From: Bacillota bacterium
GTDB lineage: Bacteria > Bacillota > Clostridia > Peptostreptococcales > Acidaminobacteraceae
Direction of reading: 5' to 3'
Length of the DNA stretch: 64,000 nucleotides
Assembly: GCA_030529225.1 (NCBI GenBank)
Contig: JAUMXH010000009.1
Coordinates: 1-64,000, forward strand
Both the position numbers and the translations under genes were made by a program. The stretch's first letter is position 1. The number at the start of each line of letters is the position of its first letter. The notes beneath the pieces were generated by a model. It was not told the origin of the DNA. It was given only the letters and a program-made list of their open reading frames with translations, and made no database searches. Positions 4,099 to 14,500 of the stretch are shown here, in pieces.

Positions 4099-5208
4099 AT
4101 GAAGAAAAATTCTTTGATAGCATTGTTTATGATTTTCGCCGTGCTCCTGACAGCCTGTCAAAATACTCAGGAACCGAATAAAAATTCGGAGAAGGCATCC
4201 GGCGCAAAGACGGAACGGGAAGGGGAACACGCAAAGGACAAGGAAGGAGAAGTCCCAATGAACGTGAAAAAAGAAAACATCAGAACCATTTACCTGGCGG
4301 GCGGATGTTTCTGGGGAGTGGAAGGCTACTTCAGCAGAATCAAGGGGGTTGTGGCCACGGACGCCGGATACGCGAACGGCGAAACGGATGACACCAACTA
4401 CGAGAAAATCGCCTCTACCAAACACGCGGAGACCGTCAAAATCGACTACGACATGAGCATTGTCTCGTTGGAGGAAATCCTCCTACACTACTTCCGCGTC
4501 ATCGATCCGACCTCGGTCAACAAGCAGGGCAATGACGTGGGCGTGCAGTACAGAACCGGCGTCTACTACACGGACGAGAAGGATTTGGAGACCATCGAAA
4601 AGGTGTTCAAATACGAGGAGAGCATACACGGCAAATTGGCGGTGGAAAAAGAGCCGTTGAAACACTTTGTCCTCGCGGAGGACTACCACCAGGACTACTT
4701 GGAAAAGAATCCGAACGGGTACTGCCACATCAACTTAAAGTCGGCAGAAGAGCCTCTATTTAAGGAAGAATATAAAAAATTCACCGAAGAAGAATTGAAA
4801 AAGAACCTGGACGAGCTTTCCTACTCGGTGCTCCGTGAAAACGCGACCGAGAGACCGGGAAGTTCGGAGCTCAACGACGAGTACAGAAAGGGAATCTACG
4901 TGGACAAGATCACCGGAGAAGCCCTCTTCGCCTCAAAGGACAAGTTTGATTCCGGTTGCGGATGGCCGAGTTTCTCTAAGCCGATCACGACCGATAAAAT
5001 CAACTATCTGGAAGATACCTCTCACGGTATGAACCGCGTGGAAGTCAGATCAAACGGCGGAGACAACCACCTGGGTCACGTCTTCAACGACGGACCGGAA
5101 GAGATGGGCGGCCTCCGATACTGCATCAACGGCGCCTCTCTGGAATTCATCCCGTTTGAAGAAATGGAAGCGAGAGAATACAAGGACTACATGATCTTCT
5201 GCGAATAA
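4099..5208 (+). CDS. msrAB: Lipoprotein peptide-methionine sulfoxide reductase MsrA-MsrB fusion
   Basis: 369 residues that repair both S- and R-methionine sulfoxide in proteins. A lipoprotein signal (lipobox LLTAC, about residues 16-20) is followed by a charged linker (about 21-53), MsrA (about 60-215; nucleophile in GGCFWG near Cys71) and MsrB (about 235-365; SGCGWPSF, HLGHVF and the catalytic Cys in RYCIN). The zinc CxxC pairs of many MsrB domains are absent, as in streptococcal fusions. The signal predicts anchoring outside the membrane. Oddly, Met54 at nt 4258 begins the enzyme proper and is preceded by GGAG at 4246-4249 with 8 nt spacing, so a second, cytosolic product is possible. Its own start has GAGGAG at 4080-4085. 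A terminator follows at 5236-5268. Confidence 0.95.
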   Translation: MKKNSLIALFMIFAVLLTACQNTQEPNKNSEKASGAKTEREGEHAKDKEGEVPMNVKKENIRTIYLAGGCFWGVEGYFSRIKGVVATDAGYANGETDDTNYEKIASTKHAETVKIDYDMSIVSLEEILLHYFRVIDPTSVNKQGNDVGVQYRTGVYYTDEKDLETIEKVFKYEESIHGKLAVEKEPLKHFVLAEDYHQDYLEKNPNGYCHINLKSAEEPLFKEEYKKFTEEELKKNLDELSYSVLRENATERPGSSELNDEYRKGIYVDKITGEALFASKDKFDSGCGWPSFSKPITTDKINYLEDTSHGMNRVEVRSNGGDNHLGHVFNDGPEEMGGLRYCINGASLEFIPFEEMEAREYKDYMIFCE

Positions 5209-5268: not shown

Positions 5269-5300
5269 GAAAAAAATGCAAATAGAAAATGGTTTTCATA

Positions 5301-5329
5301 TTTCTTTTTCATTTCTTTTATGGTATAAT
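5301..5329 (+). promoter_or_regulatory. Promoter of the znu operon
   Basis: A perfect -10 TATAAT at 5324-5329 with a TTTCTT sequence 17 nt upstream (5301-5306) as a weak -35. It sits between the msrAB terminator and the AGGAGG site of znuA. I see no clear Zur-type palindrome, so metal control cannot be read directly from the sequence. Confidence 0.6.
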
Positions 5330-5361: not shown

Positions 5362-6354
5362 TTGAAAAAAACAATACTCTTCCTCTGTCTGCTCCTGCTC
5401 CTCGCGAGCTGTTCGGGCGGAGGACAGGCCAAGCAAAACACAGAAAATCAGGCTCAAGGCGAAACAGCAAAGGCGAGCACAGAAGCGAACAACGACGAAA
5501 AACAGACCGAAGCTACCGAAAAGAAGCGGGTTTACGCGAGCTTCTTCCCGGTCTATGACCTGACCAAGAGGATTGTCGGAGAGAAGATGGACGTTCAGAT
5601 GATTATGGATGTCGATTCGGAGCCCCACAGCTTTGAACTCAAAATCAACGACATGGCAAAGCTTGCGGATGCGGACTTGATCATCTACAACGGGGCAGGC
5701 ATGGAGCTCTTCATCGACGATTTGAAACAAGTGATCGCCGACGAGAGGAATCAGGATGCGGACGCGTTTTTTCTGGACTTATCTCAAGGTCTGACCCTCC
5801 TGAAGGCGGACGAATCGGAGGACTTGAGTTCCATTAACCCGCACACCTGGCTCAGCGTGAAAAATGCGATGATTCAACTCGACACCGTGTATCAAAAAGT
5901 TTCGAGCATGGACCCGGAGAACGACGCCTATTATAAAGAAAATTTAGAACGGGCCCTGCAGGAGTTCGGCGCCCTGGAGCAAAAGATGCAGGAGGAGCTC
6001 GGCAAGCTCACGAACCGGGAAAAATACTTTGTCACTTCGCATGCGGCCTTCAACTACCTCGCCTATGACTACGGTCTGAAGCAGGTTGCGGCGACCGGTA
6101 TTTCTCCGGATTTGGAGCCTTCGGCAAAGGAGCTGAAGGACATCGCGGACTTTGTCAGAAGCCACGGTATCAAGACCATCTTCTTTGAGGGCAAGGCGAC
6201 GCCTAAGGTAGCCGAGACCCTGGCAAAGGAGACCGGCGTGAAGACCGCGACCCTCTACACGATGGAACACCTCAGTGACGAAGAGGCGAAGATGGGATAC
6301 CTAAAGCTGATGGAACACAACCTGAACGAGTTGGTGAAGTCCTTCCATGAATAA
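5362..6354 (+). CDS. znuA: Zinc-type ABC transporter substrate-binding lipoprotein
   Basis: 330 residues, cluster A-I metal-binding receptor of the ZnuA/AdcA/MntA kind. The start is TTG at 5362, chosen because GGAGG lies at 5349-5353 and the encoded signal peptide with lipobox LLASC begins there. A polar linker (about residues 20-55) precedes the binding fold. Expected metal ligands are visible as EPHSFEL, NPHTWLS and TSHAAFN; a His at the third position is the zinc pattern, where manganese receptors usually carry Glu. The His-rich loop of many ZnuA proteins is missing. Its gene overlaps znuC by 8 nt, and the operon continues into znuB and a His-repeat lipoprotein, which supports zinc as substrate. 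Confidence 0.88.
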   Translation: MKKTILFLCLLLLLASCSGGGQAKQNTENQAQGETAKASTEANNDEKQTEATEKKRVYASFFPVYDLTKRIVGEKMDVQMIMDVDSEPHSFELKINDMAKLADADLIIYNGAGMELFIDDLKQVIADERNQDADAFFLDLSQGLTLLKADESEDLSSINPHTWLSVKNAMIQLDTVYQKVSSMDPENDAYYKENLERALQEFGALEQKMQEELGKLTNREKYFVTSHAAFNYLAYDYGLKQVAATGISPDLEPSAKELKDIADFVRSHGIKTIFFEGKATPKVAETLAKETGVKTATLYTMEHLSDEEAKMGYLKLMEHNLNELVKSFHE

Positions 6355-7057
6355 GCAGAAGCAAACGATTGTGGAGGTCAGAAACCTGAGCTTTTCTTAC
6401 GACTCTTCCCCCGTCCTGAAGGACGTGAACATAGAAATGAAGGAGGGCGAGTTCGTCGCCCTGATCGGTGCCAACGGGGCCGGAAAGTCCACCTTTTTCG
6501 GTCTCCTGCTCTCCCGCTTGAAGGCGAGCGGCGGAAGCATCCGCCTCTTCGGAGACGAAATCGAAAAGGACAAGCACTTTCGGGACATCGCCTACATCTC
6601 TCAGAACTCGATCCTGGCTTATCGCGATTTTCCGACCACGGTCGAAGAGCTGATCAAGGTCCACCTGAAGCACTTGAAAATCAAGCGGGACGCCAAGCTC
6701 TTTTTGCGGGAGATCGGACTCGAAGGGCATCGCAACAACACGCTCAAGCAGCTTTCCGGCGGGCAGCTGCAGAGGCTCGCCCTCTCGATCGCCCTGCTGA
6801 AGGACGCCAAGCTCCTCTTCCTTGACGAGCCGACCAGCGGAATCGACAAGGACTTCAGCCGGGAGCTCTTCGGGATTCTAAGAGCGCTCTGCGATCAGGG
6901 AAGGACGGTTTTGATGGCCACGCACAACCTGCAGGATGCGATGCCTTACATTGACAAGGTGACCTGTATTCAGCACGGGACCTGCAGGATTTTGAACGAA
7001 GTGCAGTTGGAAAAGGAGTTGAAGCGCCAAGATGATGCAGATTACAGACTTATTTAG
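6347..7057 (+). CDS. znuC: Zinc-type ABC transporter ATP-binding protein
   Basis: 236 residues, the cytoplasmic ATPase of the metal importer. Walker A is GANGAGKST (near residue 43), the signature is LSGGQLQR, Walker B is LLFLDEPTSGID, and the switch His is in MATHNL. The start ATG lies inside the last codons of znuA (8 nt overlap) and the end overlaps znuB by 26 nt, so the three subunits are tightly coupled. Metal specificity is inherited from the neighbouring receptor; the ATPase alone cannot tell zinc from manganese. Confidence 0.9.
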   Translation: MNKQKQTIVEVRNLSFSYDSSPVLKDVNIEMKEGEFVALIGANGAGKSTFFGLLLSRLKASGGSIRLFGDEIEKDKHFRDIAYISQNSILAYRDFPTTVEELIKVHLKHLKIKRDAKLFLREIGLEGHRNNTLKQLSGGQLQRLALSIALLKDAKLLFLDEPTSGIDKDFSRELFGILRALCDQGRTVLMATHNLQDAMPYIDKVTCIQHGTCRILNEVQLEKELKRQDDADYRLI

Positions 7058-7838
7058 ATACGAATTCATGCAGCGGGCGATCATCGTCGGCATCCTGCTC
7101 GCGATCATCCTACCCTGCATCGGATTCAGCATAGTCCTAAAGCGGCTCTCGATGATTGGAGATACCCTATCGCACTCCTCGCTGGCCGGCGTTTCAATCG
7201 GACTGTTTATGGGCTTCAACCCCCTGCTCGGCTCCATCATCGCCTGCGTCATCGCGGGGTTCAGCATCGAGTTCATCCGCAGCAAACTCAAGTCCTACCA
7301 GGAGATTTCGACCGTGATCATCCTCGCGGCATCGATCGGCCTGGCCGGGGTCTTCTCGAGCTTTCTGAGCAACACCAACTCGATCACCTCCTACCTCTTC
7401 GGATCGATCGTGACGATCAGCGACAGTGAGTTTTATCTGGTTTTGGGGGTTTCGGCCTTTGTCCTGATCAGTTATAAATTGCTCTACAACAAGCTTTATT
7501 TAAGCGTCTTCGACCCGAATGCGGCGCCCTTAATCGGCATCAATGTGAAGTTGATCAACTTCGCCTTCACGATTTTGAGCGCCATCGCAATCTCGATTTC
7601 GGCGAAGACCATCGGCTCGCTCATTGTATCCTCGCTGCTGGTGATTCCGTCGATCACCGCGATGCAATTTACCAAGACTTACAAGAGTACGCTGATCTTA
7701 TCGATTTTTTTGTCGATCGGCTTCGTGCTGACCGGACTGGTTCTTTCGTATTTTTACAACTTGAAGCCCGGCTCGGTCATCGTTTTAATCGCAGTAAGTG
7801 CCTTGATGATCTCCCTGTTCATCAAGAGAAAGGAATAG
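7032..7838 (+). CDS. znuB: Zinc-type ABC transporter permease
   Basis: 268 residues, ABC-3 family integral membrane subunit with about eight hydrophobic helices. The N-terminal stretch with LKRLSMIGDTLSHSSLAG is the typical family signature, and SAKTIGSLIVSSLLVIPS near the C-terminal third is another. It begins within znuC; ATG codons at 7032 and 7035 are both possible and AAGGAG at 7013-7018 is the nearest ribosome site. Only 5 nt separate its stop from the His-repeat lipoprotein gene, so that protein is almost certainly made with the transporter. Confidence 0.9.
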   Translation: MMQITDLFRYEFMQRAIIVGILLAIILPCIGFSIVLKRLSMIGDTLSHSSLAGVSIGLFMGFNPLLGSIIACVIAGFSIEFIRSKLKSYQEISTVIILAASIGLAGVFSSFLSNTNSITSYLFGSIVTISDSEFYLVLGVSAFVLISYKLLYNKLYLSVFDPNAAPLIGINVKLINFAFTILSAIAISISAKTIGSLIVSSLLVIPSITAMQFTKTYKSTLILSIFLSIGFVLTGLVLSYFYNLKPGSVIVLIAVSALMISLFIKRKE

Positions 7839-7843
7839 ACAAG

Positions 7844-10800
7844 ATGAAACAACTCGCATTGGTTCTGGCCCTCCTCCTCGCGCTGAGCGCCTGCTCGTTC
7901 GAAGATGAGGCTAAGAAGATGACAGAAAACGGAAGGCAGGATTCTGCAGGAAGCGAGGCCGCTTCAGGCAAGGATCGGGACGCTTCCGACAAGCAAAGCA
8001 AAAAAGAGAAACCTTTCGTCGCAAAGGAGACCAAGTATGCGGTGGACGAGACCACCGAAGTCCTACTCGACGCGCCTACCCTCGCGCACAGCGAGATCAA
8101 GTCGTACTACAAGCACGGCGACCACTGGCACGTCTTTACTTGGGACGGGCGCGAATACATCACCTACAAGGACCCTGCCAAGATGAGCGCAAGCGAGCAG
8201 AACAACCTGGCCTCTGTGGCGAAGGAAACTGAGGTCTACAGCCCCGAGCAGATCGTGGCCCACATCGAAAAAGTCTACGAAAAGAACGGCGCCATTATCT
8301 TGAAATGGCACCACATCGACCACTACCACGACTCGATTGTGGGGGTCAGCGAGGACATTGGCGGCGTCATCGTCGAGGCGGCTCCGGTGGGCTACCTTCC
8401 GGATCTTTCTAAAGAAATCCCGTCTTTTGTAAAAAACACCAGGTATTTCAGACACGGAAGCAAGGTCTACTTTTTAGCCGGCGAAAGCCAAGCGGAGTAC
8501 AAGCCGACAGAGCCGGAAAAGGCGAAGGATCAGAAAAAGAGCGAGGGCGACTACGAGAAGTATAACGCGAAGAAGATCGTGGAGCACACTGAGAAAATCT
8601 ATGAGAAAAACGGTCTTTTGATTATCAAATGGCTCCACTTCGACCACTACCACGAGTCGGCATACGGCATTAGTGATGACATCGAAGGGCTGAAAATTGA
8701 GCCTGCTCCAATCGGCTTCCTAATTGATGCGAGCAAGGAAATCCCTTCTACCGTAAAAAATAAGCGATTCTTCAGAGCCGGTGACAAAATTTACTTCCTC
8801 TTTGACAAGAACAAGAAGGTCGTGCCGGAAAAACAGGAAGAAGAAAAGGATAAGAAGGTGCCGAAGGACGGCGAAAAAGAGAAGAAGGACGAGCGGGAAG
8901 GCGCGGAGGAGAATATCTCCGGCGAGGACATTGTGCGCGGAATCGAGAACATTTACATGAAGAACGGGCACCTGGTCATCTACTGGTTCCATAATGTGCC
9001 GGGAAATCCGCACCACCACACTTCGATTGTCGGCGTTTCGGAGGACATCAAGGCGCTTAGAATCGTGGAAGCGACGCGGGCCCAAGTTGCCTTTTTGGAA
9101 GAGATTCCGTCAAGCGTGGACGGCAAGAAATATTACCGAGGCGAAGGAAGCGATGCGGACACCGTCTTTTATGTAGTGTTGCAGAGCGGATCGAACGACG
9201 GCTCCGGCAACGGCGGCGGTTCGAACGGCTCCGGTAGCGATGGCGGCAATGGCGGAAACGCGGGATCAAGCCCGCAAAACCCGAGCAAGCCTGCCCTGGA
9301 AGCAAAAGAAAATGCGCAAATCACGCTGAACGGTAACTTGCCGCAAATCGGCGCAGGAAACTTGGAATTTTCCGCAAAAGAAGTGAGTCATCAGGTGCAG
9401 GTTCCGGCTCTTGTCGGCAAGGAACACGCGCTCTACGATTTCAACCTTAAGAATAAACTGACCGGGCTCACCGTTCAGCCGAGCGGCGCGGTAGTCGTCA
9501 GCGTTCCGGTACAAAAAGCCGTGCGTAAGGTCTACCATGTGAGCGCCTCGGGCGCCCTGGAAGAGAAGCGAATCGTAAAACAGGACGCTAATTCTGTGAG
9601 CTTTGAAACCACGCACTTCTCTTACTACGCTTTGGTTTACGGAAAGCCAAGCGTCGACGCGGAGAGCGACATCTCGGGATTTGAAATCGTGGCGAATATA
9701 GAGAAAATCTACATGAAAAACGGGCTCCTGATCCTGAAATGGCTCCACAAGGTTCCGGGACACGAGCACTACCACGAATCGGCAGTCGGCTTCAGTGATG
9801 ACATCAAGAATGTAAAGTTCGTTGAGAATCCTGTTGGCTATGTTCCAAACGCAAAGGATGAAATCCCGTCTGAAGTCGCGGGCAAAAAATATTACAGAGG
9901 AAGCGGAAGCAAGGGCGATACCATCTTCGTCATCACGCAAACGGCCGGACTCTTTGACAAGGTAGTCGACAACGGCGACCAAATCGAGGTCGTATACAAA
10001 GGCAAGACCTACACCATCCATCCGCAGGAATACAAGATGGCGCTGAAAGAAAACCGCTTCTTCCCGAATGAGGAATCGGAAATTACTATCGATACGAGGT
10101 TCGACAAAAGCAGGGTCATCACAGTTGCCGAAGACAAACTGGAAGACGGGTTGGACTTTTGGGCTGCCTGGAAACGCGAAGATTTCGATACCCTGACTCA
10201 GAGCCCGGACTTCGGCAGGTTTCGATGGTACATCCTGAGAAAGGATGCGAATGAATACACCGAAATCGAGGTGGATGAAGAAGATAGCTCCGAGATCAAT
10301 GCTTCTCACTACACGTTGAGCAAGGACGATGACGGCGCAATTCTGAAGGTTGCGGTCGTGAACAAACAAAATGAGCCGATCGATGAGGCCAAGTATTTGA
10401 TTAAAATCACCCTGAATGCACACACGGGAGAGGTCAGCGAGAAGACCAAGGAAATCATTCAGCACACCAGAAAGGTACTGAATCGAAACGGGGTGCTGAC
10501 CGTGAAATGGTGGCACATCAACCACTGGCACTATGAGCCTGCGGGATGGTACGGGGACCTCGTGATTGAAAAAGCACCGGCCGGATACCGAGCGGACAAC
10601 GCGAAACAGATTGACGAACTCTCTCTGCAGGATGCGTTTTTAAACAAAATCTACTACCTGGAAGAGGATAAAATCGTGTTCGTGGAAGTGGATGCGGCAG
10701 AGTTTTTAAGAGTTAAGGGAGAAGAAATCCTGAGAAGGGCCGATCGATTCCAGCGCGAAACGGATGAAGGGAAGAGAGTCGAGTACGAATACTTGGAAGC

Positions 10801-11269
10801 GGAGCAAAAACGCGATGTGACAAGATTTCTCGAGCTCTACGGACAGCTTGACGAAGCCGAAAAACCGGGGCTGGCCGACCTGAAAGCCAGGCTGGAATAC
10901 CTTGCGGGGCTCTCAGACAAGCCTTCGCCTGTGAACAAGAACCCGCTCCCTCTTGAGGGCGCGGGCGCTGCGGAGGATGCAGGGGCAAATAGCGCGCCCG
11001 GCACAGTGGAAGCAGGTAGCGAGAATAAGATACCGGGCGGAAGCGCGGCGGATGATGAAGCTGCGCCAAGCAACGAAGCTGCAGCGGATTCTGCAAATGC
11101 ACCCGCTTCGTCAGAGTCAAACGAGCCCGACGCTGCCGGCGCAGCTCAAGCGGATTCTCTGAACGCAGAAGCTCTGAAACCGGAGGAGGAAGACGAGTCT
11201 GCCCTCACCGATATGAACCGGTATTCTGTCTCCTACTCGACCTTGCTTTCTTTGCTCGTGAGGAAATAA
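7844..11269 (+). CDS. Giant His-repeat lipoprotein, probable zinc-capture surface protein
   Basis: 1141 residues. The lipobox is LSAC (about residues 14-17). A classical His-triad block HGDHWHV starts near residue 91. Five longer repeats start near residues 137, 245, 363, 616 and 871, each following the pattern (I/V)xKxYxKNGxLxxKWxH then a dense His cluster: HHIDHYHD, HFDHYHE, HHHTS, HEHYHES and HINHWHY. Between them lie Lys/Glu-rich linkers, a Gly/Ser/Asn linker (about 447-485), a beta-like region (about 490-605), a helical FIVAR-like region (about 940-1020) and an Ala/Glu-rich tail. HxxHxH motifs recall streptococcal Pht proteins that bind zinc and hand it to AdcA; here the gene is the last in the znu operon. 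Odd: the final three codons and stop lie in a duplicated segment, so the native C-terminus may have been lost. Confidence 0.88.
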   Translation: MKQLALVLALLLALSACSFEDEAKKMTENGRQDSAGSEAASGKDRDASDKQSKKEKPFVAKETKYAVDETTEVLLDAPTLAHSEIKSYYKHGDHWHVFTWDGREYITYKDPAKMSASEQNNLASVAKETEVYSPEQIVAHIEKVYEKNGAIILKWHHIDHYHDSIVGVSEDIGGVIVEAAPVGYLPDLSKEIPSFVKNTRYFRHGSKVYFLAGESQAEYKPTEPEKAKDQKKSEGDYEKYNAKKIVEHTEKIYEKNGLLIIKWLHFDHYHESAYGISDDIEGLKIEPAPIGFLIDASKEIPSTVKNKRFFRAGDKIYFLFDKNKKVVPEKQEEEKDKKVPKDGEKEKKDEREGAEENISGEDIVRGIENIYMKNGHLVIYWFHNVPGNPHHHTSIVGVSEDIKALRIVEATRAQVAFLEEIPSSVDGKKYYRGEGSDADTVFYVVLQSGSNDGSGNGGGSNGSGSDGGNGGNAGSSPQNPSKPALEAKENAQITLNGNLPQIGAGNLEFSAKEVSHQVQVPALVGKEHALYDFNLKNKLTGLTVQPSGAVVVSVPVQKAVRKVYHVSASGALEEKRIVKQDANSVSFETTHFSYYALVYGKPSVDAESDISGFEIVANIEKIYMKNGLLILKWLHKVPGHEHYHESAVGFSDDIKNVKFVENPVGYVPNAKDEIPSEVAGKKYYRGSGSKGDTIFVITQTAGLFDKVVDNGDQIEVVYKGKTYTIHPQEYKMALKENRFFPNEESEITIDTRFDKSRVITVAEDKLEDGLDFWAAWKREDFDTLTQSPDFGRFRWYILRKDANEYTEIEVDEEDSSEINASHYTLSKDDDGAILKVAVVNKQNEPIDEAKYLIKITLNAHTGEVSEKTKEIIQHTRKVLNRNGVLTVKWWHINHWHYEPAGWYGDLVIEKAPAGYRADNAKQIDELSLQDAFLNKIYYLEEDKIVFVEVDAAEFLRVKGEEILRRADRFQRETDEGKRVEYEYLEAEQKRDVTRFLELYGQLDEAEKPGLADLKARLEYLAGLSDKPSPVNKNPLPLEGAGAAEDAGANSAPGTVEAGSENKIPGGSAADDEAAPSNEAAADSANAPASSESNEPDAAGAAQADSLNAEALKPEEEDESALTDMNRYSVSYSTLLSLLVRK

Positions 11270-11385
11270 AACATCCGTATGTACAAGAGTACATCCCGGG
11301 ACAGGGCAATATCAAAGGAACTGTTGACATAGCGGCCTTTGTCTCCTCTTTCTTCGATATCTATGAGAACAGTTTCAAGTGACGA
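11256..11385 (+). pseudogene. Truncated copy of the secreted-protein gene at 13946 (repeat copy A')
   Basis: From TCGTGAGG at 11256 to GTGACGA at 11385 this matches 14002-14362 almost base for base, except that the internal part is gone. The missing part lies between two GCAGCCTTT-like repeats (coding Ala-Ala-Phe), leaving an in-frame fusion that would read VDIAAFVSSFFDIYE. The signal-peptide end is replaced by the end of the His-repeat lipoprotein gene, so there is no start. Only a few substitutions separate the copies, suggesting a recent duplication. Confidence 0.85.
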
Positions 11386-12296: not shown

Positions 12297-13151
12297 TTAA
12301 CCGGGCCATTCAGAATACAAACCTGCCTTCAGAGAAAGACAACGAACGGAGCACATCACCACTTTCCAAGGATACTCTTTTGCATAGTGGTATTTGTTCC
12401 GATATCGTTCCCATAATTCCGCCATTTTTTCGTCAGATTCAAGCGCTCTCAAGACTGTTTCGGCGTTTTTCATCAATTTTAAACTGCCTCTTTTTGAGGC
12501 AGTTCTTTTTAGTGCAACCTTTAGAATTTCACAGTCTACTCTTTGTGATTCTAATAGTCTATGAATGTCATAAAAATCCCTCATTCTTGTATTTGTAATA
12601 GATCTGGAAACCACTGTTTCTAATTTTTCCGCCAAAACAGTCTCGATGGGATAGGCTAATATAAGAATATTTCTATCTTCAAACATCAGCTTATATTCAT
12701 ACTTCATCTCCTTCGGCGTAATTAAATCCCCAGTAGAAATATCAATCTTTAGTGGGATGACTGCGCGATCCAAAAACGCATCCACGCTGAACCTGATTCC
12801 TGAGTATTCACTCTCATCCATGATTTCAGTGACTTTTTTCATTTTGAAGACAACATTATCATCTAAAGGGATATCGAAAATCTCCAAAATAATCTTACTC
12901 ATTCCGGTAATGGACATAGAAATACCCTTTATTGTAGCGTCCATATCCATAGTTGCCCTGGATTCTACTCCGACAAAAGCGGATACCAACATCCCACCTT
13001 TCAAAATAAAATGTTCGACATAGTTTGATTTTGAAAGCCGTTCTAAAAAGCGTTCCATCATATACTTTCTAAGCAGAACTTCGGATTCTATTCCACTCTC
13101 TTTTGATAAATTGCGTATTAAATCCTTCAACTGTCTTGATGTGCGAATCAT
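12297..13151 (-). CDS. abiEii: AbiEii-type nucleotidyltransferase toxin
   Basis: 284 residues, cytoplasmic, of the AbiEii/AbiGii toxin family (type IV toxin-antitoxin and phage-abortive systems). The nucleotidyltransferase signature is visible as FILKGGMLVSAF followed by TMDMDA, with the GG and DxD residues of the family, near residues 45-70. The family is proposed to transfer nucleotides onto RNA targets. The ATG overlaps the abiEi stop as TAATG, so antitoxin comes first and is coupled. The last about 15 residues run into the junction with the decayed duplication, so the C-terminus may be slightly altered. Base composition is visibly AT-richer than the flanking housekeeping genes, consistent with transfer. 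Confidence 0.9.
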   Translation of the reverse strand: MIRTSRQLKDLIRNLSKESGIESEVLLRKYMMERFLERLSKSNYVEHFILKGGMLVSAFVGVESRATMDMDATIKGISMSITGMSKIILEIFDIPLDDNVVFKMKKVTEIMDESEYSGIRFSVDAFLDRAVIPLKIDISTGDLITPKEMKYEYKLMFEDRNILILAYPIETVLAEKLETVVSRSITNTRMRDFYDIHRLLESQRVDCEILKVALKRTASKRGSLKLMKNAETVLRALESDEKMAELWERYRNKYHYAKEYPWKVVMCSVRCLSLKAGLYSEWPG

Positions 13152-13744
13152 TACAACAACACCTCCAAGTAACTTCTAAGTATATTGGCTACGTGGAGCT
13201 TGTCAGCACACTCCATCAGATAATGTAGATTCTTACTCCTGCGTTTCGCATACTCTTTTACTGCATCCTGAAATATTTGCAAATCAACTGTTGAACGATT
13301 ACGAATCAAATCGCATAGAGTTCGCTCCGGATTATAAATTTTAACTTCATTTCCAAAAGGGGTTTTTACATTCACTACACCAAGCTCAAACAACTCTTTC
13401 TTGATAGCATACACTTTTACACCGTCTTCTCTCAAATGGCTTGCATTGTATCCGGACTTTACCGTAACGGTATACTGATGTGGATCTTGGTCGGTCATAT
13501 CTAATAAGTACAATGCCGTTTCATGAGAAAATATAGTCTTCGGACAACGAAGCTGCAATAAATATAAGCCATCCTCCCAAACATCGGGAGAACAATAGAT
13601 GCCTCGGGAAACACGCTCATACCCATATTGCTCAACAAACTTTGCCAGGGTCGGCTTACTGATTCCGTTCTTCAGAACGACCTTCGTTTGAAGAACTCCA
13701 TTGTTTTCACTGGAGATTCTTTCGATTCGATCAAATGGATTCAT
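13151..13744 (-). CDS. abiEi: AbiEi-type antitoxin and autorepressor
   Basis: 197 residues. The N-terminal winged-helix region (about residues 15-60, GISKPTLAKFVEQYGYERVSRG split by families as the AbiEi wHTH) and the following YCSPDVW, FSHETALYLLDMTDQDP and NPERTLCDLIRNR blocks are characteristic of the AbiEi antitoxin. In characterised pairs AbiEi neutralises AbiEii and represses its own promoter through inverted repeats. Here a 9-bp inverted repeat overlaps the promoter just upstream (13763-13788). ATG at 13744 is preceded by AAAGGAT. Confidence 0.9.
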   Translation of the reverse strand: MNPFDRIERISSENNGVLQTKVVLKNGISKPTLAKFVEQYGYERVSRGIYCSPDVWEDGLYLLQLRCPKTIFSHETALYLLDMTDQDPHQYTVTVKSGYNASHLREDGVKVYAIKKELFELGVVNVKTPFGNEVKIYNPERTLCDLIRNRSTVDLQIFQDAVKEYAKRRSKNLHYLMECADKLHVANILRSYLEVLL

Positions 13745-13798: not shown

Positions 13799-13945
13799 GT
13801 TTCTTCTTGCCAACAAAAGAAAAAACAACGGAAAAGTAACATATCACTTCCACCATGGAAAAAATCATCAAAAAATGTTATGATTGATAATAGGAATCTC
13901 CAGCTTTATGAATGAAACAGTCTACCATTCTCGGAGGTGATTCTA

Positions 13946-14359
13946 ATGAAAAAATACTTGGTGGCGGCATTCTGTCTCCTACTCGCCCTCAATTTCTTCC
14001 TTCGTGAGGAAATAAAACATCCGTATGTACAAGAGTACATCCCGGGACAGGGCAATATCAAAGGAACTGTTGACATAGCAGCCTTTTACGAACGCGATCA
14101 ACGATTTGAAGTCGGCGCTTCAAAAGACGGATACGCCGTTTTTAAAGACCCGCATCAGGCTTACAGGGCTCTCTTGGAAAAGTACTCTGACGGACTATCC
14201 TTGATTCGGGATGAGTATCAGCTGGCTCCCATCAATAAGCACAATTACCAATCTTACGCAAATTATGGATGCCGAGTCACGACCGGCTCGGAAGAAGAAC
14301 GAAATAAAGCAGCCTTTGTCTCCTCTTTCTTCGATATCTATGAGAACAGTTTCAGGTGA
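13946..14359 (+). CDS. Small secreted protein of unknown function
   Basis: 137 residues. ATG at 13946 is chosen because GGAGGTGA lies at 13933-13940. A hydrophobic segment (about residues 4-18) predicts export or an N-terminal anchor; no lipobox Cys is present. The mature part contains HPYVQEYIPGQGNIKG, ANKDG-like GASKDGYAVF and ends FFDIYENSF. I recognise this as resembling a hypothetical family found in Clostridia but know no function. Codons from 14002 onward are duplicated, with an internal deletion, at 11256-11385, making this the intact parent copy. Confidence 0.8.
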   Translation: MKKYLVAAFCLLLALNFFLREEIKHPYVQEYIPGQGNIKGTVDIAAFYERDQRFEVGASKDGYAVFKDPHQAYRALLEKYSDGLSLIRDEYQLAPINKHNYQSYANYGCRVTTGSEEERNKAAFVSSFFDIYENSFR

Positions 14360-14500
14360 CGACTCTTACAAAAAGTTTTTATAGAAACATTCCGATATAA
14401 AATAGGATACCTGAGTCAGAATTGCATTCCGGCGGGTCGGGTTTAGAAAGGCTCATTTCAGAATCGTTTCCCACATAGGAACATTGTTAGGAGGTGGCGT

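Follow-up and report, generated by a model that had tools for sequence, protein, structure and literature searches.

The Operon and Its Final Gene

The window, i.e., the whole stretch of 64,000 nucleotides that was analyzed, holds an intact operon in which the genes of a substrate-binding protein (SBP), an ATPase and a permease overlap consecutively (Table 1). ZnuA, ABC_tran and ABC-3 domains are found together in this trio, the combination that defines a Cluster A-I zinc ABC importer by Pfam domains. Directly 5' of the operon lies a gene for a lipoprotein fusion of the methionine sulfoxide reductases MsrA and MsrB (window 4099-5208).

The fourth and last gene of the operon starts 5 nt past the permease stop and is open across 1141 codons. 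The product, here called the giant protein, has the N-terminus MKQLALVLALLLALSAC, with the lipobox LSAC ending at Cys17, the sole cysteine of the protein. This arrangement is as described in an earlier note on this DNA, where a giant lipoprotein was placed at the end of a znuA-C-B operon, 5 nt after znuB.

The 3' end of the gene lies within a duplication (window 11219-11385 and 13965-14362). The segment at 11219-11385 copies a small open reading frame at 13937-14359 in part, with an internal deletion (93% over 122 nt, 96% over 55 nt), and the last ~15 codons of the giant gene are an out-of-frame reading of this segment. The C-terminus has been shaped by rearrangement, and the ancestral one may have differed. 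Between both copies of the duplicated segment is a gene for an AbiEii nucleotidyltransferase-type toxin (12297-13744, reverse strand), which has an AbiEi-like partner, as in type IV toxin-antitoxin systems.

Table 1. Features of the zinc-transporter operon and of its final gene, in window coordinates
Feature	Position	Strand	Evidence
Candidate Fur/Zur operator ATATGAAAACCATTTTC, common to the other zinc operon (weak)	5285..5301	-	
Zinc-type substrate-binding lipoprotein (ZnuA/AztC-like), without His-rich loop	5362..6354	+	PF01297 2.4e-78
Operon ABC ATPase	6347..7057	+	PF00005 3.8e-28
ABC-3 family metal permease	7032..7838	+	PF00950 4e-60
Giant His-triad lipoprotein, 1141 aa, final operon gene	7844..11269	+	
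Signal peptide and lipobox MKQLALVLALLLALSAC, Cys17	7844..7894	+	sequence
Module 0, short Pht-like triad EIKSYYKHGDHWHVFTWDGREYITYKDP, H91/H94/H96	8093..8179	+	
Repeat 1, HIDHYH at H157	8228..8494	+	repeat alignment; AF2 pLDDT 61
Repeat 2, HFDHYH at H265	8552..8818	+	repeat alignment; AF2 pLDDT 92.2, pTM 0.81; top PDB match PhtD 3zfj
Repeat 3, expanded triad HNVPGNPHHH at H383	8906..9182	+	repeat alignment
Gly/Ser-rich linker and middle segment without His triad	9185..9652	+	sequence; no family match
Repeat 4, expanded triad HKVPGHEHYH at H635	9662..9938	+	repeat alignment
Second segment without His triad	9938..10441	+	no family match
Repeat 5, HINHWH at H891	10442..10703	+	repeat alignment
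Charged region, then Ala/Glu-rich low-complexity tail; last ~15 codons within rearranged duplicate	10704..11266	+	

Repeats and Histidine Triads

The giant protein contains five repeats of ~89 residues each, which align over their full length and are 32-55% identical to repeat 1, as well as one short module with the triad HGDHWH at H91; at least five repeats had been claimed. Ten columns are invariant across the five repeats (I, N, G, W, H, H, H, G, D and I). Exact HxxHxH is found in four of the six His clusters, while the other two are expanded triads. In composition-preserving shuffles (n=10,000) the HxxHxH motif occurred 0.03 times on average and twice at most, i.e., none of the 10,000 reached four. 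Repeat 5 is only 32% identical to repeat 1, yet the triad histidines are unchanged, and within the protein three His are invariant in every repeat. Consequently, the His positions of the clusters are not "degenerate", as the clusters had been called; rather, the triad histidines are the best-conserved part of the repeat.

Seventeen residues ahead of the triad, directly behind the helix, repeats 1, 2 and 5 have a His; in repeats 3 and 4 the position is taken by Gly or Asn, and these two are exactly those that have an expanded triad with an extra His. This coincidence suggests that a putative fourth ligand has been swapped between the -17 His and the extra triad His, as far as five repeats can indicate.

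Predicted Structure of a Repeat

Prediction with AlphaFold2 resulted in a poor model of repeat 1 (pLDDT 61) and in a confident model of repeat 2 (pLDDT 92.2, pTM 0.81; 89.3 to 92.2 across five models). The latter is composed of a helix (residues 4-9), strands at 11-17, 20-27, 30-35 and 46-49 and a second hairpin (69-74/77-82), where His1 is located at the end of the second strand and His2 and His3 within the third. In the zinc-bound N-terminal domain of PhtD, a helix (56-63) is followed by strands at 70-75, 78-83 (H83), 86-90 (H86, H88) and 99-101, and by a second sheet within 118-137 (PMC3842936). The predicted order of elements in repeat 2 is thus that of the PhtD zinc domain, and the repeat may have a PhtD-like fold.

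Among the 350,542 PDB chains to which the repeat 2 model was compared using Foldseek, PhtD (3zfj) took the top rank. Its probability (0.51, across 81 columns) was the best of all and its TM-score was 0.36, but the E-value of 0.14 is not significant. The weak repeat 1 model found both PhtD and PhtA among 56 sub-threshold matches (E 3.8 and 8.6). A search of viral structures returned noise only, reaching E 0.18, which shows that values near 0.1-0.2 can be chance. Because Pht was the hypothesis named before the search, the ranking counts for more than its E-value by itself would suggest, yet it falls short of proof.

Homologues and Relation to Pht Proteins

Neither a Pfam match nor a meaningful NCBIfam match was obtained for the giant protein, and the middle segments that lack triads matched no family. 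A PDB sequence search returned only His-tags and antibody linkers, with no solved relative. The whole protein found no homologue among 99 relatives (one Gly-rich chance match), and the repeat profile found no relative in 394 sampled genomes of the order or, at E≤5, in 398 sampled genomes of the phylum, where the best candidates, checked in translation, look like chance, several of them with stops. The same holds for 41 genomes of the family and 265 sampled genomes of the class, the latter yielding one chance match to a GH42-type enzyme. GTDB contigs, plasmids and viral contigs contained no relative either in scans for short peptide patterns, which distant relatives would escape. Judged from these comparisons of sequence, the giant protein is an orphan, unlike any protein found. 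Downstream of the zinc transporter trio in a related genome (locus L084, 4614-5765), a gene encodes a 383-residue protein in which His makes up 6.3% and HxxHxH occurs three times.

The HxxHxH pattern is the motif of the streptococcal Pht proteins (PMC3842936), so that the contrast with Pht drawn in the earlier note ("differently built") was overstated: it applies to the surrounding sequence, but not to the triad itself. Like the Pht proteins (PhtA/B/D/E; PF04270, TIGR01363), the giant protein carries multiple such clusters within one long surface protein and its gene is linked to that of a zinc SBP; like PhtD in particular, it is predicted to have modules with this order of elements, PhtD being the best, though non-significant, structural match in the PDB. 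Unlike Pht, the unit is ~89 residues long and has an NG and a W conserved ahead of the triad, four additional residues expand two of the triads, and the gene is found with an entire transporter rather than with an SBP alone; detectable Pht sequence homology and family-model matches are absent. The published strict PROSITE-type Pht motif with hydrophobic flanks (PMC3842936) has no strict or core match in the giant protein, and PF04270 (Strep_his_triad) has none in the protein, its repeats or its own genome. Applied to the phylum sample, this model does recover a true Pht with five triads from another genome (G685), where the gene is located 7 nt behind a metal-SBP-like gene. In hhalign, HMMER and Smith-Waterman comparisons with the latter protein, the similarity was no better than that of triad-preserving shuffles, and membership of the Pht family by sequence was rejected because everything beyond the triad is at the level of shuffled controls. 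Most likely, the giant protein works like Pht; membership of the family is unsupported by sequence and, judged by structure, possible.

Transporter, Receptor and Regulation

The best NCBIfam model for the SBP is AztC (7.7e-53, below cut-off); manganese MntC models also score, all below cut-off. Homologous SBPs (E at most 1e-40) are found in 38 of the 394 genomes of the order, own genome counted. Twenty of these loci were read and are mostly SBP-ATPase-permease operons, several of them beside Fur-family regulators and CobW-type GTPases; permeases that adjoin Fur-family or CobW-like genes in related genomes share up to 52-54% identity with the permease of the operon. Both kinds of gene are typical of zinc limitation, and these neighbors therefore indicate zinc. 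Together with the operon position and the invariant triads, they uphold the tie to metal capture that had been proposed. The giant gene is present in none of the 20 loci, i.e., the suggested survey of the operon in related genomes showed the transporter to be conserved, but not the giant gene.

Alignment with the other SBPs of the genome confirmed that the receptor in the window lacks the usual His-rich loop: the corresponding loop, ADESEDLSSINPH, has no His ahead of the ligand His. In the earlier note the giant protein was proposed as a possible replacement for this loop. A second ZnuA of this genome (C26:89666), encoded behind a Fur-family gene on contig 26 (region L040 7077-8683), has an ~80-residue loop rich in His and Asp. 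The genome therefore relies on two distinct designs outside the cell, possibly for one and the same metal. In the second ZnuA, GDRFPF occupies the place of the xHxAF-type motif of the other SBPs, so that this SBP may lack its third metal-ligand His. The operon on contig 4, the third system of the genome, is probably of manganese type, judged by its gene set.

Expression of the operon would depend on zinc. The 17-nt pattern ATATGAAAACCATTTTC has two exact matches in the genome, which are its two source sites upstream of the two zinc operons, and a third match, with one mismatch, inside purN. Because the pattern was drawn from both sites and their similarity is within the shuffle range for 14- to 17-mers (50/150 for 17-mers), it is a lead only.

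Proposed Function and Alternatives

We consider it likely that the giant protein, an orphan by sequence, scavenges zinc in the manner of Pht and supplies it to its own ABC importer. Anchored in the membrane and facing outward, the five PhtD-like modules and the short triad module would each bind one zinc ion by three His on a beta-hairpin, probably with an added fourth ligand. The chain of modules would catch zinc outside the membrane and pass it to the loop-less SBP of the same operon, and the loaded SBP would deliver it to its own ABC transporter for import. Established by the analysis are the gene with its lipobox, repeats and invariant His, the operon and the transporter family; the fold is predicted, and the identity of the metal as zinc, a single ion in each module, the hand-over to the SBP and an expression that depends on zinc are inferred. 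Zinc transfer from PhtD to AdcAII has been published (PMC3842936). In favor of this model are the location in a zinc operon, the 5-nt gap, the Fur-family and CobW neighbors of transporter relatives, the invariant triads, the four exact HxxHxH clusters, the PhtD-order model, the first rank of PhtD and the true Pht gene of G685 behind a metal-SBP-like gene. Against it count the non-significant Foldseek E-values, the restriction of Pht similarity to the triad, the unmatched strict motif, the lack, in the genomes searched, of an orthologue that could show a conserved operon link, the transporter relatives that do without such a protein, and the presence in this genome of a further ZnuA that has a His loop itself. 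A more specific version, which we regard as possible but doubtful, is that the protein represents a family of modular His-triad zinc relays that evolved independently and whose fourth ligand swaps position; graded affinities of the modules could then pass zinc along the chain to the loop-less receptor.

Size, repeats, a low-complexity tail and middle segments are usual among Gram-positive surface proteins, and streptococcal Pht is reported to recruit complement factor H, according to a title cited within PMC6689063; the protein might therefore be an adhesin or a binder of host factors, in which metal at the His sites serves structural stability only. The placement of the gene at the end of a zinc transporter operon and the invariance of a triad in repeats that diverge to 32% identity make this improbable. 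The many predicted binding sites per chain would suit a buffer or store, which would protect the cell surface when zinc is in excess or fluctuates and would have no part in feeding the importer, but a protein for excess zinc is not expected in an importer operon, and we judge this role quite improbable.

Handling of another metal, e.g., manganese, nickel or cobalt, would be compatible with the sub-threshold scores of the SBP to both AztC and MntC models. AztC, a zinc protein, is nevertheless the best of these models, relatives of the transporter adjoin Fur-family and CobW genes, and the probable manganese system is a separate operon on contig 4. Zinc is also favored over manganese by His-rich sites, and a different metal is very improbable. 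That the gene is decaying and its operon position accidental can hardly be credited: although it is an orphan with a 3' end inside a partial, rearranged copy of a neighboring gene, 1141 codons are open and every triad is intact.

Comparison with Other Zinc Systems

AztD is an extracellular zinc donor to the SBP of the AztABCD system (PMC6689063, PMC7463823). Like AztD, the giant protein is encoded as a fourth component in one operon alongside an AztABC-like zinc transporter; unlike the giant protein, AztD is a beta-propeller and requires a three-His loop in AztC, which the SBP in the window lacks. At E≤1 the giant protein matches neither the NCBIfam AztD model nor those of the anchored-repeat relay proteins (TIGR03769 and relatives). 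In Corynebacterium diphtheriae, ZnuE, ZnuF and ZnuG are surface proteins of the znu cluster that serve ZnuABC; they resemble the giant protein as membrane or wall proteins of a zinc cluster, some with repeated zinc-motif domains, but they have the motif HxD/HxH, are described as distinct from Pht in sequence, and are actinobacterial and partly wall-localized (PMC12445094). The second ZnuA of the present genome would likewise capture zinc outside the cell by a His-rich element close to an ABC importer, but this element is a loop inside the SBP, whereas the giant protein is separate and modular.

Reports of proteins with the Pht motif come almost exclusively from streptococci, other Lactobacillales and Gemella (motif survey, PMC3842936). 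If the proposed function is correct, Pht-like modules in a distant lineage, in one operon with a whole transporter and lacking relatives in sequence, would mean that the plan of a scavenger coupled to an importer either goes back much further or evolved repeatedly. The five repeats, with their swapped putative fourth ligand, would constitute a natural series on how module affinity directs zinc to the receptor.
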